A stretch of DNA of 64,000 nt. Origin: Liquorilactobacillus mali. Its GTDB lineage: Bacteria > Bacillota > Bacilli > Lactobacillales > Lactobacillaceae. Where the stretch lies: assembly GCF_001437155.1 (NCBI RefSeq), contig NZ_JQAR01000007.1, positions 1 through 64,000 of the forward strand, in the 5' to 3' direction. The notes under the pieces were generated by a model. It was not told where the DNA came from. It saw only the letters and a list, made by a program, of their open reading frames with translations, and did not search any database. Position numbers and translations under genes: made by a program. The first letter of the stretch is position 1; each line of letters opens with the position of its first letter. Shown here one piece after another: positions 9,320 through 47,555 of the stretch.

Positions 9320-10444
9320 TTATTCTAAAAAGTCTTTTAACTGTTTTGAACGTGAAGGATGACGTAACTTGCGTAATGCCTTTGCTTCGATTTGGCGAAT
9401 ACGTTCACGGGTAACACCAAAGACCTTCCCTACTTCCTCAAGAGTACGTGTACGGCCATCATCTAAACCAAAACGCAGACGTAATACGTTCTCCTCACGA
9501 TCAGTTAATGTATCAAGTACGCTCTCAAGCTGTTCCTTCAATAACTCATATGCTGCATGATCAGCGGGACTAGTAGCATCGTGGTCTTCAATGAAGTCAC
9601 CTAAATGCGAATCATCCTCTTCACCAATTGGTGTTTCTAGTGACACTGGTTCTTGCGCAATTTTCAAAATCTCACGAACTTTATCCGTTGGCATATCCAT
9701 TTCAGCACCAATTTCTTCTGGCACTGGCTCACGCCCAAGGTCCTGCAACATTTGTCTTTGAATTCTGATTAACTTATTAATTGTCTCAACCATATGAACC
9801 GGGATACGAATTGTACGGGCCTGATCCGCAATTGCACGCGTGATTGCCTGCCTAATCCACCATGTCGCGTAGGTAGAAAACTTGAATCCCTTACGATAGT
9901 CGAATTTTTCAACAGCTTTCATTAGCCCCATATTTCCTTCTTGAATAAGGTCAAGGAAAGACATGCCGCGACCAACATAGCGCTTAGCAATCGAAACAAC
10001 TAAACGTAAATTAGCTTCAGCCAAACGCTGTTTTGATTCCTCGTTGCCTTCCTCGATCTTCAACGCTAAAGCAACCTCTTCGTCAGCCGTTAACAAATTT
10101 ACGCGTCCAATTTCCTTAAGGTACATTCTAACTGGATCATTAATCTTAACCCCGGCAGGTGCCGATACATTCTTTTCACTTGATGCCTTTTCAGCAACGC
10201 CCGAAGCGGCCTTTAAACTATGTTCACTTGGTTCACCTTTTTCATCCACAACTGAAATACCAGAGTCTTCAAGTTTCTGAATAAGTTCATCCATCTGACC
10301 TGAATCCAAGCTATAGGGGGTAACTATTTTTTCACTCAAATCATCATAGTTAATTTCTTTTTGTGCCTTATATTCCTTAATTAACTCATTCACGGCTTTA
10401 GTATATGCTGCACTTTCAGTTTCTTTATTTACGTTCTCTGCCAT
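9320..10444 (-). CDS. rpoD: Primary sigma factor RpoD (sigma-A)
   Basis: Housekeeping sigma factor that directs RNA polymerase to -35/-10 promoters. Of 374 residues, the N-terminal about 85 are the acidic region 1.1; region 1.2 starts at [11 protein letters not shown]; regions 2.1-2.4 run through [20 protein letters not shown] and [16 protein letters not shown]; region 3 starts near the RIPVHM segment; and region 4.2 carries the helix-turn-helix [19 protein letters not shown] near the C-terminus. The length matches Gram-positive sigma-A, without the large non-conserved insertion of enteric sigma-70. It begins 11 bases after dnaG and is cotranscribed with it. I see no terminator of its own before the next promoter. 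Confidence 0.98.
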
Positions 10445-12606: not shown

Positions 12607-14682
12607 TTACTTAACGTTTAATTTCGTTAAGTCTCCCAACTTATAGGCAAATGAAGCATACAAACTTAACTGATACAAACGATTATTACGGATATCTGCG
12701 TCTTTTGCCATTACCATCGTTTCATCAAAGTAATTGTTAATAACAACACGCATCCCTCGTAATGCTTGGAATATTTCCTCAACATTATTGAAATTCTTTT
12801 CCTCAATCTCAGCTACTCTATCTGCTAAAACTTTCTCAGCATCATTTTCAAATAATTCAGGGTTAAGCTGAACATCTGCTGCCAAATCCGCTTTTTTAGC
12901 AAGTCGCAAGACACGTGTGGTCGCTTCGACCGTATCCTTGAAGTCTTTATCAGTGCTATGAGCCTTAAGAACCTTGGCAGCCTCAAGCATTTCCTTAAAG
13001 CCATTTGTTGTTTTAGCCGTTACCGTCTCAATCACATCAAAATTATAATGCTGTGCTTCAAGCATTTTCTTAATGCGTTCGACAATGAAAGTCGTAACTT
13101 CTGTTTCTGTATCAGCAGGACTAATCTTTTGATACAGTTCAGGATTTGCTACCGCATTTTTTTCTACAACATTGAATAGCTGAACTGCAGATAATGACCA
13201 ATTTTGATTCATCACTATCCGAGCTATCCCAGCGGCTTGTCGTCGAAGTGCATAAGGATCATTTGACCCAGTTGGAATCATTCCTGCCGCAAAAAACGCT
13301 GCTATACTATCTAGCTTATCAGCAACTGCTAATAAGGCCCCGACAGTTGTTTGTGGAAGTTCACCTTCTGCAGAAATTGGCATGTAATGTTCTTTGATTG
13401 CTGTCGCAACTTCTGGTTTCTCTCCCATTATAAGCGCATATTTTTCACCCATTACACCTTGTAATTCTGAAAATTCGCCGACCATTCCCGTTACCAGATC
13501 AAACTTATAAATTTGTGCAGCACGTTTCAAGTTAGCCTTACTCTCTTCATCAAAGTCCAAGTAATCTGCAAGAATAGCACTTAGTAACTGTACACGTTCC
13601 ATTTTTTCAAAAGTTGTTCCAATCTTGTCATGAAACATAACTTTCTTTAGACGTTCAACATAATCCGCAATTGAATTTTTTTGATCTTCATGGAAGAAGA
13701 ATGCAGCATCTTCAAGTCGCGCGGTCAAAACCTTTTCATTTCCTGCAATCACAGTGTCAATATTGTCTTTTACACCATTTCTAACAGAAACAAAATTAGG
13801 CAATAGTTTGCCATTTTCATCTTGCACGTAGAAGAAACGTTGATGATCTTTCATCGAAGTAATCAAAACTTCATCAGGAATCTCCAAATATTTTCTGTCA
13901 AAACTACCAGCAAAAACAGTTGGATACTCAACTAAGTTATTAACCTCTTCGAGCAAGTCATCATCAACAATGATCTTCCAGTCATTCTTAGCAGCTAAAT
14001 CCTTAATCTGTTGAACAATCAAGTTCTTTCTTTCCTGACTATCAGCAATCACATATTCTGAGACTAGTGCCTTAGGATATTCATCAGCATCTTGTATCGT
14101 AACATCCTTGCCCAGAAAACGATGCCCTTTCGTAACATTCCCAGATTTCACATCCAAAATACTGAATGGTATAACTTCATTATCCAATAGGGCAATAATC
14201 CATTTTAATGGACGTACAAATTTAAAATCATTGCTTCCCCAACGCATCATTGTAGGAAATACCATCGCAGTAACTGCAGTTTTAACACCGCTAAGAATCT
14301 CAATTGCCTTTTTACCAGCAATGAATTTGTTTACATAAGCATATTCAACACCCTTTAATTCTTTAAAGAAAATATCATCAGGTGTCATCCCCTGTCCACG
14401 AGAAAAACCAATTGCGGCCTTAGACCAGTTGCCCTCAGCATCTTGTGCAATCTTTCGAGCCGGTCCCTTTGCTTCCTCTTCAATATCTGCTTGTTGATCA
14501 GCCAAGTTCAAAACCTTAACTGCCAGTCGACGAGGTGTTGAAAATGTTTCAATACGCTCAAAAGACAAACGTTGTTCCTTTAGAAATGAACTGACACGTT
14601 CTGTTAGTTGTTGCGCACTTGGAGTTACAACATGTGCTGGAATTTCTTCCAAGCCAATCTCTAATAGAAATGTATGGGTCAT
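12607..14682 (-). CDS. glyS: Glycyl-tRNA synthetase beta subunit
   Basis: Beta chain of the bacterial alpha2-beta2 glycyl-tRNA synthetase, which charges tRNA-Gly in the cytosol. At 691 residues it is full length. The N-terminus TFLLEIGLEEIPAHVV is the standard family start, GSNDPYALRRQAAGIARI near 480-495 is the conserved HD-like region, and the C-terminus (about 570-690) is the helical anticodon-binding DALR-like domain. It begins one base after glyQ ends, so translation is coupled. Regulation is expected through the T-box before glyQ. Confidence 0.97.
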   Translation of the reverse strand: MTHTFLLEIGLEEIPAHVVTPSAQQLTERVSSFLKEQRLSFERIETFSTPRRLAVKVLNLADQQADIEEEAKGPARKIAQDAEGNWSKAAIGFSRGQGMTPDDIFFKELKGVEYAYVNKFIAGKKAIEILSGVKTAVTAMVFPTMMRWGSNDFKFVRPLKWIIALLDNEVIPFSILDVKSGNVTKGHRFLGKDVTIQDADEYPKALVSEYVIADSQERKNLIVQQIKDLAAKNDWKIIVDDDLLEEVNNLVEYPTVFAGSFDRKYLEIPDEVLITSMKDHQRFFYVQDENGKLLPNFVSVRNGVKDNIDTVIAGNEKVLTARLEDAAFFFHEDQKNSIADYVERLKKVMFHDKIGTTFEKMERVQLLSAILADYLDFDEESKANLKRAAQIYKFDLVTGMVGEFSELQGVMGEKYALIMGEKPEVATAIKEHYMPISAEGELPQTTVGALLAVADKLDSIAAFFAAGMIPTGSNDPYALRRQAAGIARIVMNQNWSLSAVQLFNVVEKNAVANPELYQKISPADTETEVTTFIVERIKKMLEAQHYNFDVIETVTAKTTNGFKEMLEAAKVLKAHSTDKDFKDTVEATTRVLRLAKKADLAADVQLNPELFENDAEKVLADRVAEIEEKNFNNVEEIFQALRGMRVVINNYFDETMVMAKDADIRNNRLYQLSLYASFAYKLGDLTKLNVK

Positions 14683-14683
14683 A

Positions 14684-15601
14684 TTATTTGTCCTCCTTTA
14701 ATAAACTTTGGCGCAACTTTTCATCCTTAATCAACGGAAATCCTAATTTTTTACGCTCTGCTACGAATGCTTTTGCCACATCTTTTGCCATGTTTCTAAT
14801 GCGTGCCAAATAACCAGCACGTTCTGTCACAGAAACGGCACCTCTTGCATCTAACAGATTAAAAGTGTGGCTGCATTTCAAAACATAATCGTATGCAGGA
14901 TGAACGAGTCCATTTTTAATCTGTTTCTTAGCTTCCTCTTCATATGTATCAAAGAAGTTAAACAGCATTTCTTGGTTACTCTCTTCAAATGAATACTTTG
15001 AATGTTCATATTCAGGTTCACCAAATATATCGCCATACTTAACACCATCTGCCCATTCTAATTCAAAAACAGAATTAACATCTTGAATATACGACGATAG
15101 ACGTTCCAAGCCATACGTAACTTCGGCTGCAACGGGACGAACCTCAAGCCCGCCAACTTGTTGGAAGTAAGTGAACTGTGTGATTTCCATTCCATCCAAC
15201 CAAACTTCCCAACCAACACCGGCACAACCCATTGAAGGATTTTCCCAATTATCTTCAACAAAACGAATATCATGTTCCTTAGGATCGAGTCCCAATGCGC
15301 GTAAACTATCAAGATAGAGTTCCTGAATATTGGAAGGTGATGGTTTCATGATTACTTGGAATTGATGATGTTGATACAGACGGTTTGGATTTTCACCATA
15401 ACGGCCATCTGCTGGTCTTCTAGATGGTTCAACATAAGCTGCATTCCATGGCTCTGGCCCAATTGCACGTAAAAATGTATATGGACTCATCGTTCCTGCA
15501 CCCTTCTCAGTATCATAGGATTGCATCAACATACATCCTTGTTTTGACCAAAATTGCTGCAAGGTCAAGATAATATCTTGTAAGGCTAACTTCTTTGACA
15601 T
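14684..15601 (-). CDS. glyQ: Glycyl-tRNA synthetase alpha subunit
   Basis: Catalytic alpha chain with the class II core; it activates glycine and, with GlyS, charges tRNA-Gly. Visible motifs are [14 protein letters not shown] at the N-terminus, [34 protein letters not shown] and [10 protein letters not shown]. The length of 305 residues is usual. ATG start with AGGAGG seven bases upstream. It is the first gene of glyQS, directly behind a T-box leader and terminator, so expression should respond to uncharged tRNA-Gly. Confidence 0.98.
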
Positions 15602-15650: not shown

Positions 15651-15688
15651 AAAAAAGCCTATGCAACCACAATCAGCGGTTACATAGG
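15651..15688 (-). terminator. T-box regulated terminator before glyQ
   Basis: Minus-strand stem CCTATGTAACC / GGTTGCATAGG followed by TTTTTT. Its 5' side overlaps the region needed for the T-box antiterminator. Confidence 0.88.
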
Positions 15689-15870
15689 GACGACTTTCTA
15701 TTAATCGCGGTTCCACCCTATTTCTAGCATAGCTAGCAGCTTCATTCATGTTATGAAGATTCCAAAAACGCCAGTGTCAAACTTCTACTTGTCCGCTTAC
15801 ACTATCCGGACTCGCTGCTGAGCAAAATATCAGACACCCTTTTTCATCATTACCTTCACATTTATCTACC
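15651..15870 (-). promoter_or_regulatory. Glycine T-box leader of glyQS
   Basis: The conserved T-box GGGTGGAACCGCG is at 15718-15706 on the minus strand, where it can form the antiterminator that contacts the tRNA acceptor end. It is followed by the terminator at 15658-15688. A GGC glycine codon at 15772-15770, on the 3' side of an apparent stem I just after a GTGTC/GACAC helix, is the likely specifier. Uncharged tRNA-Gly would favour readthrough. Confidence 0.92.
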
Positions 15871-20293: not shown

Positions 20294-20479
20294 TTAGAAA
20301 CGACGTTTATTCTTACGCTTTCTTGCTGCTTCTGACTTCTTCTTACGTTTCACACTTGGCTTCTCGTAAAATTCACGCTTACGGTATTCTTGTAAAGTAC
20401 CTGTTTTTGAAACGGTGCGTTTGAAGCGACGAAGAGCATCATCAAGAGATTCGTTTTTACGAACGACTGTCTTTGACAT
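20294..20479 (-). CDS. rpsU: 30S ribosomal protein S21
   Basis: Small basic protein of the 30S subunit, near the anti-Shine-Dalgarno region. The product of 61 residues starts [20 protein letters not shown], with the Arg/Lys-rich tail [18 protein letters not shown]. The ATG at 20479 has a GGAGGGAGGG-type site just upstream; an upstream in-frame start at 20536 adds residues foreign to the family. It has a strong promoter and leads the rpsU-yqeY unit. Confidence 0.97.
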
Positions 20480-20557
20480 ATTGTTTCCCTCCCTCCGAGC
20501 TTTAAAGTAACCGCCTAATCTTGTATAAATACACAAATTTAATAACAGTTCCTAACT

Positions 20558-20586
20558 ATTATACATAAAGGTTGACAAACCGTCAA
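20558..20586 (-). promoter_or_regulatory. Promoter of rpsU-yqeY
   Basis: Minus strand TTGACG (20586-20581), 17-base spacer, TATAAT (20563-20558): a near-consensus sigma-A promoter about 80 bases before rpsU. Confidence 0.8.
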
Positions 20587-20624
20587 TACACCAAATTTAA
20601 TATCTTAAAAAATACTGAAATCGT

Positions 20625-20664
20625 TTCCTTTACGTACATTATACTCATAATGTATAATCAAGTA
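20625..20664 (+). promoter_or_regulatory. Promoter region of ppsR
   Basis: Plus strand TTTACG about 18 bases before TATAAT (within ATGTATAATCAAG), with a second TATAGT a few bases later. Several overlapping -10-like boxes make the exact start uncertain. It is divergent from the rpsU promoter. Confidence 0.4.
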
Positions 20665-24286: not shown

Positions 24287-26047
24287 TTAATCTTCTGTTG
24301 TTTCTAGATGTAATTCGTCTAATTGTTTTGGTGCAACCGTGCTTGGTGCATTTGTAAGTGGTTCGGATGCTTTAGAATTCTTTGGAAATGCAATAACTTC
24401 ACGAATATTATCACGTTTGGCTAGCAGCATTGCGAAACGGTCTAAGCCAATTGCTAATCCGCCATGAGGTGGAAAACCATAATCAAGTGCATCAATGAAG
24501 AAACCAAACTGTTCCTCGGCTTTCTCCTTTGTAAATCCTAGAGCTTTAAACATTTTTTCTTGGACATCCCGTTGATGAATACGAATTGAACCACCGCCTA
24601 ATTCATAACCGTTCAACACAATATCATAACTCTGTGCGTGTGCCTTATGTGGATCAGTCTCTAACAGGGCAACATCTTCTTCATTAGGCATTGTGAATGG
24701 ATGATGAGCTGCAATGTATCTATGGAAGTCCTCGCTGTACTCGAATAATGGCCAATCAACGACCCATAAGAAGGCAAACTTACTTTCGTCAATCATGTTC
24801 AATTCCTTAGCAATACTTGTACGTAAGTATCCTAATGAAGCAGCAACAACGTCCTTAGTATCTGCTACAAACAAGATTAAGTCTCCCACTTTAGCTTCTG
24901 CTGCTTCGCAAAGAGTAGTGACACTTTCATTGAAAAACTTAGCAATAGGTCCAGAAAAACCATCTTCAGTTACTTTTAACCATGCCATTCCCTTTGCACC
25001 GAAACGCTTGATGTAGTCCTGCTTAGCATCAAGTTCTTTGCGAGAGTATCTATCTGCTCCACCTGGTACAGCAATTGCCTTGACTTGGCCGCCATTTTCA
25101 AGTGTGTTTTTAAATACCTTGAAGTCAACGTCCTTGACTGCATCCGCCATGTTTTTCAATTCCATGCCAAAGCGTACATCTGGTTTATCTGATCCAAAAC
25201 GATCCATTGCTTCATTCCAAGTAATCCGCTTAAGAGGAAGTTCAATATCAATATCCAGCGTATCCTTCATAACGCGCTTCAATAAGCCTTCTGTCAAATC
25301 TTGAATTTCTTCAGCCGTCATAAATGAAGTTTCCAAGTCAATCTGAGTAAACTCTGGCTGACGATCCCCACGCAGATCTTCATCACGAAAACAACGTGCA
25401 ATTTGGTAATAACGATCAAATCCGGCACCCATCAATAATTGTTTGAATAACTGTGGTGACTGTGGAAGTGCATAAAAATGTCCTGGATAAACACGGGAAG
25501 GTACGAGGTAATCACGTGCTCCTTCAGGTGTTGATTTTGTCAGATATGGTGTTTCAATATCAATAAATTTATTTTCATCAAGATAGCGATGAATTGATTG
25601 CGTAATCTTGCTGCGAAGAATCAACCCCTGCTGCATTTCTGGACGGCGCAAATCAAGATAGCGATACTTCAGGCGCAAATCGTCTGCAACATTGATCCCA
25701 TCTTCAATATAAAATGGTGGTGTCTTTGCCTTATTCAAAAGATTGATCTCATGAATTTCAACTTCAAACTTACCTGTCGCCATTTTTGGATTAATTGCAT
25801 CTTTTGCACGATTTACGACCTTACCAGTAACTTCGATTACATATTCGCTGCGTAATTCATCGGCTACCTTAAGGGCAGCCTCGTCAAAAGCTTGGCTAAA
25901 TACTAATTGAACGATTCCTTCACGGTCTCTTAGGTCAATAAAAATCAAATTACCAAGGTCACGACGTTTTTGAACCCAGCCTTTCAAAGTAACTTCTTTA
26001 CCCAAAAATGATTCATCTACTAATCCACAATAAACTGTTCTTTTCAT
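24287..26047 (-). CDS. aspS: Aspartyl-tRNA synthetase
   Basis: Class IIb synthetase charging tRNA-Asp. Visible: N-terminal OB anticodon-binding domain (about 1-105), motif 2 region [18 protein letters not shown] near 218-235, a bacterial GAD insertion domain (about 285-420), and motif 3 [13 protein letters not shown] near 530-542. At 586 residues it has the bacterial length. It follows hisS by 9 bases and shares its T-box leader. Discriminating versus non-discriminating type cannot be judged from sequence alone. Confidence 0.98.
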
Positions 26048-26056
26048 AGTTATTTA

Positions 26057-27358
26057 CTATTCTCCCTTTGCAGAGTTGAAGTTTTGTATAACTTCACCAA
26101 AATTTGTTTGAATATCTGAAAGACTGACTGCAATTTCCTGACCGCTTGCCATTTCTTTCAAATTTGCCTTGCCCATTGCTAGTTCTTCTTCGCCAACCGT
26201 AAGTGTGTACTTGGCACCCAAACGACTAGCTGCTTTGAATTGACCCTTGGGTTTGCGATCCAAGTAGTCACGTTCCGCACTAAAGCCTGCTTTACGAATT
26301 GCATGAACAAGCTTCATTGTCCCAGAAAGAGTGTCCTCTCCAATTCCAACTATATAAACATCTAAACCATTATCGGGTTTCAGATTGATTCCTTCCGCAT
26401 CCAAAACCAATAATAGGCGTTCCACGCCAAGGCCAAAACCAATTCCCGGTGTTTCCGGTCCACCTAATTGCTCAACAAGGCCATTATAGCGGCCACCAGC
26501 ACATACTGTTGTCCATTTGCCGCCAAAGGCTTTCGAGTCACTCATAATTTCAAAAATCGTATGATTATAGTAATCAAGACCACGAACCATATTTGAATCA
26601 ATTTCATATGATATTCCTAATGTATCAAGCAACATCTTGACTTTATCAAAATGCTGCTGTGCATCTGGTGTTAAATAATCAAGAATATCGGGTGCATCTG
26701 CAACGATTTTCTGGTCATTTTGATCCTTACTGTCAAGAACACGTAATGGATTCTTGTGAAGTCGTTCTTTTGAATCATCACTTAACTGTGTCTCGAATGG
26801 TTCAAGATACTCAACCAGAGCATTACGGTAATTCGTTCGAGATTCAATATCACCTAATGTATTGATTGCAAGTTTCAAATTTTTCAAGCCAAAGCTGCGC
26901 AAGAGCTCAACGGCCATTGACATCACTTCAACATCTAAAGCTGGATTATCAACGCCAAATGCCTCGACCCCAATTTGATGAAACTCTCTTAATCTACCAG
27001 CCTGTGGACGTTCATAACGAAACATTGGTCCCATGTAGAATGTCTTAAATGGCTTTTGAATCTCTGGTCCGTATAATTTGTTTTCAACGTACGCACGTAC
27101 CACTCCAGCAGTTCCTTCGGGGCGCAGTGTAATGTGCCGATCCCCCTTATCAAAGAAATCGTACATTTCCTTTGTAACAATGTCCGAAGTTTCACCCGAT
27201 GTGCGAGAAAAGACTTCAAAACTTTCAAATATTGGTGTACGGATTTCATTATAACGGTATTTGTTAAACAGCTTACGTGCTTTTTCTTCAACACTTTGCC
27301 ATTTTTCAGATTCTCCAGGGATAATATCTGTCGTACCCTTTGGACGTTGATATTTCAT
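26057..27358 (-). CDS. hisS: Histidyl-tRNA synthetase
   Basis: Class IIa synthetase charging tRNA-His. Motif 2 shows [21 protein letters not shown] near 113-133; the histidine motif [11 protein letters not shown] near 258 and [13 protein letters not shown] (motif 3) near 308-320 are clear; the C-terminal 95 residues form the anticodon-binding domain. 433 residues. ATG start with AGGAG eight bases upstream. It is the first gene after the T-box leader at 27395-27608. Confidence 0.98.
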
Positions 27359-27394: not shown

Positions 27395-27426
27395 AAAAAA
27401 AACCTTGCCGAAGAAATTCGACAAGG
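27395..27426 (-). terminator. T-box regulated terminator before hisS
   Basis: Minus-strand stem CCTTGTCGAA / TTCGGCAAGG followed by eight Ts. Confidence 0.9.
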
Positions 27427-27608
27427 GTGCAAACAGCACGGTACCACCTTAACTAGCTACTCATTGGATAACGTTCCACAACGGTATGCATTTGTGCATA
27501 CACCTAAGAAGTGTCTTTCGCTGATTATCTTAGTGAAGCTCTCACCAATCGCCCACTCTCTGTTTAAGAATCTTCAGCTACTCCTCTTCCATTCGGCTCT
27601 AATATACT
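27395..27608 (-). promoter_or_regulatory. T-box leader of hisS-aspS with overlapping GAC/CAC specifier
   Basis: The T-box AAGGTGGTACCGTG is at 27450-27437 on the minus strand, followed by the terminator. On the 3' side of the apparent stem I lies GCGAAAGACACTTCT; GACAC (27515-27511) contains both GAC (Asp) and CAC (His), the two amino acids handled by this operon. The stem I start (AGAGAGTGGGCG) and apical loop region (GGTGAGAGCTTCAC) are in the expected order. Confidence 0.92.
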
Positions 27609-27614
27609 GTTACA

Positions 27615-27643
27615 AACATACTTTATTTTTACTATAAAGTCAA
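27615..27643 (-). promoter_or_regulatory. Probable promoter of hisS-aspS
   Basis: Minus strand TTGACT (27643-27638), 17-base spacer, TATGTT (27620-27615), just past the amidase stop codon. Confidence 0.6.
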
Positions 27644-47168: not shown

Positions 47169-47525
47169 TTAATCTTCGGGATGATTTAACTTATTTAAAA
47201 GTTCATCAATATGATCTCCATATTGAACTGAGCGATCTCGTTCAAAAATCAGCTCAGGAGTCACATAGATACTCAACCTAGAACCTAATTCTCGACGAAT
47301 CAGTCCCTTGGCTTTCTCCAAACCAATCTGTGTTTTTTCACCATCAGATGCAAGTTCAGACAGAATACTATAATAAATGGTTGCTTGCTGCAAGTCACCA
47401 GTAACTTCGACCCCCGTAATTGTAATTCCTTGAACTCGTGGATCGCGAACTCTTTTCATCAAAATATCTGTTACTTCTCGTTGGATTTCTTGAGATAAAC
47501 GACCAACACGATAATTTTGTGCCAT
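47169..47525 (-). CDS. rbfA: Ribosome-binding factor A
   Basis: KH-fold protein binding 30S precursors for late 16S processing and cold adaptation. AQNYRVGRLSQEIQREVTDILMKRVRDPR at the N-terminus (in parts YRVGRLSQEI, VRDPRVQGIT), then the strand pattern of the KH domain and LIFERDRSVQYGDHIDELL. The ATG at 47525 with GGAGGA gives 118 residues. It is last in the operon after infB (30-base gap). Confidence 0.96.
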   Translation of the reverse strand: MAQNYRVGRLSQEIQREVTDILMKRVRDPRVQGITITGVEVTGDLQQATIYYSILSELASDGEKTQIGLEKAKGLIRRELGSRLSIYVTPELIFERDRSVQYGDHIDELLNKLNHPED

Positions 47526-47555
47526 TGCGTTCTCCTCCATCTAATTCTTAATTAA

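Follow-up and report, generated by a model that had tools for sequence, protein, structure and literature searches.

The leader of the hisS-aspS operon of Liquorilactobacillus mali raises the question of whether a single riboswitch can respond to two different tRNAs. In the window, i.e., the whole stretch of 64,000 nucleotides of contig NZ_JQAR01000007.1 that was analysed, the specifier region of this T-box reads GACAC, in which an aspartate codon (GAC) and a histidine triplet (CAC) overlap and match the two genes of the operon. The preliminary description proposed that a small change of register presents either codon. In a fuller form of this proposal, considered here as a rival reading, a two-base slip of the specifier loop would let uncharged tRNA-Asp read GAC and uncharged tRNA-His read CAC, such that either shortage would induce both synthetases. 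The pentamer as such is already known and not new, as the preliminary description had allowed: GACAC in the specifier loop is described as characteristic of hisS-aspS T-boxes, that of L. parabuchneri included (PMC5313534, citing Gutierrez-Preciado et al. 2009). According to the same paper, Gutierrez-Preciado et al. suggested that GACAC mainly interacts with tRNA-Asp; PMC4342826 cites their work for two alternative structures that sense both tRNAs. The hisS-aspS T-box of MRSA has been termed a histidine T-box (PMC7927825). As far as these citing accounts describe them, the hisS-aspS leaders of Bacilli from the 2009 study precede the same operon, carry the same GACAC, and show no essential difference from the leader considered here. 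The literature searched, which took in a minority of subscription journals, yielded no experiment in which tRNA-His was tried on a GACAC leader.

The leader aligns with the T-box model over its full length (Rfam RF00230, model positions 1-219 of 219, 79.8 bits, E 7.4e-18; Table 1). Of the 33 T-box matches in the genome, 24, this leader among them, fall short of the gathering score of 93, and a scan at that score returned nothing for this reason. The element comprises a stem I with a specifier loop (AGUA / GAA) that carries a codon for a downstream gene, a UGGN bulge within the antiterminator, and a terminator that overlaps antiterminator bases. The T-box, the hisS-aspS operon and both triplets of the preliminary description are confirmed by the Rfam match, the open reading frames with their NCBIfam assignments, and the sequence itself (GACAC at 27511-27515, minus strand). 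The span first assigned to the element, 27437-27515, reaches from the specifier to the T-box bulge but omits the 5' half of stem I and the terminator. The minimum free energy of the whole-leader fold was not better than that of shuffled sequences (z -0.31) and the fold was not that of a T-box; it was not used as evidence. The promoter-like hexamers upstream are only a suggestion for the promoter of the leader.

Table 1 Features of the hisS-aspS leader and of the synthetase genes in the window.
Feature	Position	Strand	Basis or remark
T-box leader RNA, stem I to antiterminator	27420..27602	-	Rfam RF00230
GAC, Asp specifier codon, canonical register (GAA-A-GAC-A)	27513..27515	-	Rfam alignment; Asp codon in family leaders
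CAC, overlapping His triplet, two bases out of register	27511..27513	-	Rfam structure line; pairing probability
A following specifier, usual stacking purine	27512	-	Rfam alignment; purine role from PMC7583486
GAA, specifier loop 3' side	27517..27519	-	Sequence and model alignment
AGUA, specifier loop 5' side	27579..27582	-	Sequence and model alignment
GAAG, helix under specifier loop, 5' strand	27586..27589	-	Pairs with CUUC 27508-27511
CUUC, helix under specifier loop, 3' strand; contains last C of CAC	27508..27511	-	Rfam alignment; pairing probability
UGGU of T-box bulge; variable base U (27443)	27443..27446	-	Sequence; family comparison
Antiterminator (AAGG...CCUU); 27423-27426 common to terminator	27423..27450	-	Rfam alignment, limits by eye
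Intrinsic terminator hairpin, then U run	27403..27426	-	10 pairs, 4-base loop, 8 T
Promoter-like hexamers TTGACT-17-TATGTT	27615..27643	-	3 such sites vs 2.0 expected in shuffles
hisS, histidine--tRNA ligase	26057..27358	-	433-aa ORF; TIGR00442, 504 bits, cut-off 287
aspS, aspartate--tRNA ligase, 9 bases after hisS	24287..26047	-	586-aa ORF; TIGR00459, 806 bits, cut-off 374
glyQ	14684-15601		Downstream of second T-box; NCBIfam
glyS	12607-14682		Downstream of second T-box; NCBIfam

A second T-box of the window lies upstream of glyQ and glyS (15683-15859, minus strand, 52.5 bits, bulge UGGA). Elsewhere in the same genome, T-boxes occur in tandem (G000:C3:46976-47199 with 47293-47553, and G000:C26:9602-9860 with 9971-10204) and as a divergent pair (G000:C14:20031-20256 and 20422-20659).

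Both triplets are present in the specifier region, but only GAC occupies the canonical register. The Rfam model sets GAAAGACA on the 3' side of the specifier loop, with GAC as the specifier followed by A, and with the second C paired. With this last base of CAC begins the CUUC strand, which pairs with GAAG in the helix under the loop. In an isolated stem I its pairing probability is 0.99; the C of GAC also pairs in this fold, with a probability of 0.68. Exposing GAC in the L. mali stem I costs 0.4 kcal/mol and exposing CAC 3.4 kcal/mol. Across all 104 GACAC leaders of the survey described below, mean costs are 0.69 and 1.85 kcal/mol; CAC is the costlier triplet in 67 of them, and the two cost the same in 23. 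The pairing probabilities of this set are less distinct, at 0.77 for base five of the pentamer and 0.26-0.35 for the bases of GAC. An attempt to derive the pairing of the fifth base from the AGUA motif was abandoned in favor of these probabilities: the motif was found in 148/208 leaders, seemingly often misplaced, and pairing of the fifth base with its presumed AGUA-based partner was feasible in 74/125 GAC leaders. The overlap itself arises because the specifier ends in C, the usual purine A follows, and the next stem starts with C. The preference for a purine after the specifier is explained by stacking in a review (PMC7583486). The CAC overlap is real, but from the letters it seems largely a side effect of ordinary T-box sequence.

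Conservation among relatives bears directly on the two-codon proposal. We searched hisS in genomes of the family, order and class, fetched 160 further stretches, and examined 246 hisS loci, 215 of which have an adjoining aspS. A T-box core GGUGGNAC[C/A] was required in the leader and found at 208 loci; the other 38 were left uncounted, at least four of which (L139, L298, L308, L310) carry a GGUGGCAAC core instead. The aligned specifier pentamers of the 208 leaders are GACAC (104), GACAU (26), AACAC (24), GACAA (9), GACAG (8) and GACCC (7), with five or fewer of each remaining form. Within the Lactobacillaceae, 116 loci were examined and 10 without the core dropped, and 99 of the resulting 106 have aspS beside hisS. 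All 99 carry an Asp codon (98 GAC, 1 GAU): 97 were called GAC by script, and two were read by eye (L245, GAC; L217, GAU). At L217 the synonymous GAU replaces GAC and CAC is lost. Seven further family loci lack aspS in the fetched stretch; two of them read GAC (L183, L185) and five CAC after GAA or GA (L238, L239, L242, L243, L246). Four of the family's GAC calls relied on a one-base shift from the aligned column. Adding the former two yields 101 family leaders with an Asp codon. CAC is present in 69 of these, all GACAC, and missing in 32, such that the two codons are not conserved jointly. Within the family, this is the outcome that the preliminary description had named as refuting its proposal, namely relatives in which a single codon is conserved.

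GACAC is nevertheless the commonest form in the family (69/99), which favors the reading of both codons, and visual inspection of 18 leaders in records titled Liquorilactobacillus, Ligilactobacillus or (two) Lactobacillus showed it in every case. The near relative L153 has GACAU. On a hisS protein tree, built by a quick method and with some long branches, the presence of CAC requires 13 changes, at least 11 of them forced by well supported branches; this is clustered relative to shuffled labels (27.3 changes on average). Outside the family, GACAC accounts for 25/50 GAC leaders in other Lactobacillales and 10/29 in other Bacilli.

The same out-of-register triplet occurs in T-boxes for other amino acids. 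The controls were 30 tyrS and 30 pheS loci. The tyrS loci were those with the best scores in 61 family genomes, a choice that leans to nearer relatives and in which 29 specifiers were readable by eye. A-C follows the NNC specifier in 12/29 tyrS leaders (TACAC) and 17/30 pheS leaders (TTCAC), pooled 29/59, and an out-of-register CAC is therefore expected about half the time. By eye, the leuS (CUCAC) and tyrS (UACAC) leaders of the L. mali genome also contain it. With kinship ignored throughout, the 69 GACAC among 99 GAC leaders differ from the pooled control at p 0.012, from tyrS alone at p 0.008 and from pheS alone at p 0.19, and a comparison of hisS and tyrS within the same 26 genomes (17 vs 11) gives p 0.15. 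A mild excess of GACAC is possible, and it needs no histidine function. Histidine biosynthesis was considered as a driver of CAC and rejected: GACAC is found in 28/31 genomes with a hisZ hit vs 41/70 without (p 0.0012), and the association was lost, i.e., not significant, on independent tree pairs. The pheS leaders show a similar odds ratio with hisZ (6/7 vs 11/23, p 0.10).

The base that would meet the acceptor end of the tRNA provides a second line of comparison. In this genome tRNA-Asp ends in G73 and tRNA-His in C73, the latter paired with G-1. U pairs with G73 by wobble and not with C73; A does not pair with C73. In the family, the variable base of the UGGN bulge is U in 101/101 hisS leaders with an Asp codon, whereas the five with a His codon have A (4) or G (1). 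In hisZ leaders of the family, where CAC stands beside GAA in or near the canonical register, it is A in 16, G in 7 and U in 5 of the 28 that were readable; the set comprised 30 loci, from which L479 and L496 were dropped, and its weakest hits may be other HisRS-like proteins. Asp-codon hisS leaders and hisZ leaders differ in this base at p 6e-21 (Fisher, kinship ignored), a contrast that weighs against sensing of tRNA-His. One such T-box resides in the L. mali genome itself, before a hisZ-like gene (L003; best NCBIfam match hisZ, 232 bits, below the cut-off of 272). It has the same architecture as the hisS-aspS leader and an available CAC, but differs in that CAC is canonical (GAA-A-CAC-A) and the bulge base is A. 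As A also fails to pair with C73, the bulge U marks a difference from His leaders and is not proof of pairing. U is the commonest bulge base in the other T-boxes of the genome too, which makes it better evidence against His than in favor of Asp. For His, the authors of TBDB likewise left the discriminator base out of consideration (PMC7778990).

Genomes in which the operon is split allow the leaders of the two genes to be read separately. aspS lies far from hisS in G045, G077, G062 and G025, and on another contig in G104. The T-boxes before aspS alone read GACAC (L498 and L502, in G045 and G104), GACCC (L499, in G077) and GACAG (L500 and L501, in G062 and G025), and their bulge base is U in all five. 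GACAC thus precedes aspS alone in two of the five genomes read, so CAC occurs without hisS, which argues against a switch read by both tRNAs. G045 and G077 have a separate hisS leader with CAC and a bulge base A or G (L503, L504). In G062 and G025 the leader of hisS alone reads GAC and holds no His codon (L183, L185), which misfits a simple rule. Second hisS copies without adjoining aspS were observed at L242, L243 and L246, in genomes that possess the hisS-aspS pair as well; the leaders of these copies carry CAC, and their bulge base is A.

A set of leaders that lost GAC and kept CAC points in the other direction. Alignment gave 24 AACAC leaders; by eye, L242, L243 and L246 proved to be misregistered canonical CAC before hisS without adjoining aspS, leaving 21 (L136, L137, L140-L143, L148, L284, L287, L290, L297, L299-L301, L306, L307, L309, L326, L333-L335), 18 of them outside the Lactobacillales. 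In L335, aspS is found about 550 bases after hisS. The bulge base of the 21 leaders is A in 7, C in 7 and U in 7; those of family f11 have A, as in most hisZ leaders. In strict register AACAC presents AAC, a codon for Asn. An Asn reading through loss of AsnRS was rejected: 17/20 tested genomes have asnS over the curated cut-off, the exceptions being G323, G412 and G124, with the genome of L326 outside the 20. The His triplet, although two bases out of register, may therefore be the one that is read in these genomes and, by extension, in GACAC leaders. For some lineages, these sequences point to a possible role of the downstream triplet.

Taken together, we consider the hisS-aspS leader to be a standard transcription-attenuation T-box that reads uncharged tRNA-Asp, with a probability of roughly three in four. 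In this mechanism uncharged tRNA-Asp would pair its GUC anticodon with GAC, and its G73-CCA end would pair with UGGU through a U-G wobble. Binding of the tRNA would stabilise the antiterminator and allow read-through into hisS-aspS. A weak response of the leader to tRNA-His is possible but unneeded to explain the sequence.

Sensing of either tRNA by one switch, as first proposed, appears unlikely. The 21 leaders that keep CAC without GAC favor it, as do the two-structure model proposed for hisS-aspS (PMC4342826) and the report of a two-codon T-box in the transamidation operon of Clostridium acetobutylicum (PMC4052509), but only the Asp codon is kept throughout the family, and the same CAC turns up often in tyrS and pheS leaders and also before aspS alone. 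The paired last C of CAC and the contrast in bulge base with hisZ leaders count against it as well. The C. acetobutylicum T-box (Saad et al. 2013) has two overlapping codons in its specifier loop and a multi-gene operon; the hisS-aspS leader resembles it in having both triplets before such an operon, although the last C of its CAC is paired in the model. According to PMC4052509, both tRNAs bind there in vitro and in vivo, whereas binding of both tRNAs would be hypothetical for the hisS-aspS leader, across whose family relatives only one codon is kept. GACAC could also be an evolutionary hinge, a doubtful reading and no likelier than the former: most lineages would use the Asp codon, some Bacilli (AACAC) the out-of-register His codon, and GACAC leaders would answer both tRNAs unequally. 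That CAC is the working codon and GAC incidental is highly improbable, since the order of genes (hisS first) and the AACAC leaders of other Bacilli are opposed by an Asp codon in every family leader with aspS beside hisS, by the inconstancy of CAC, and by family hisZ leaders that have CAC in or near the canonical register and a bulge A or G in 23/28.

The frequency of CAC in tyrS and pheS leaders warns against calling any NNC-A-C specifier region dual. Should dual sensing be true, the reading of two codons by a T-box could be studied readily by pairing GACAC leaders with relatives that naturally carry GACAU or GACGC. If the leader senses tRNA-Asp only, the expression of hisS in these lactobacilli would track the supply of aspartate and not that of histidine, as has been argued for L. 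parabuchneri (PMC5313534).
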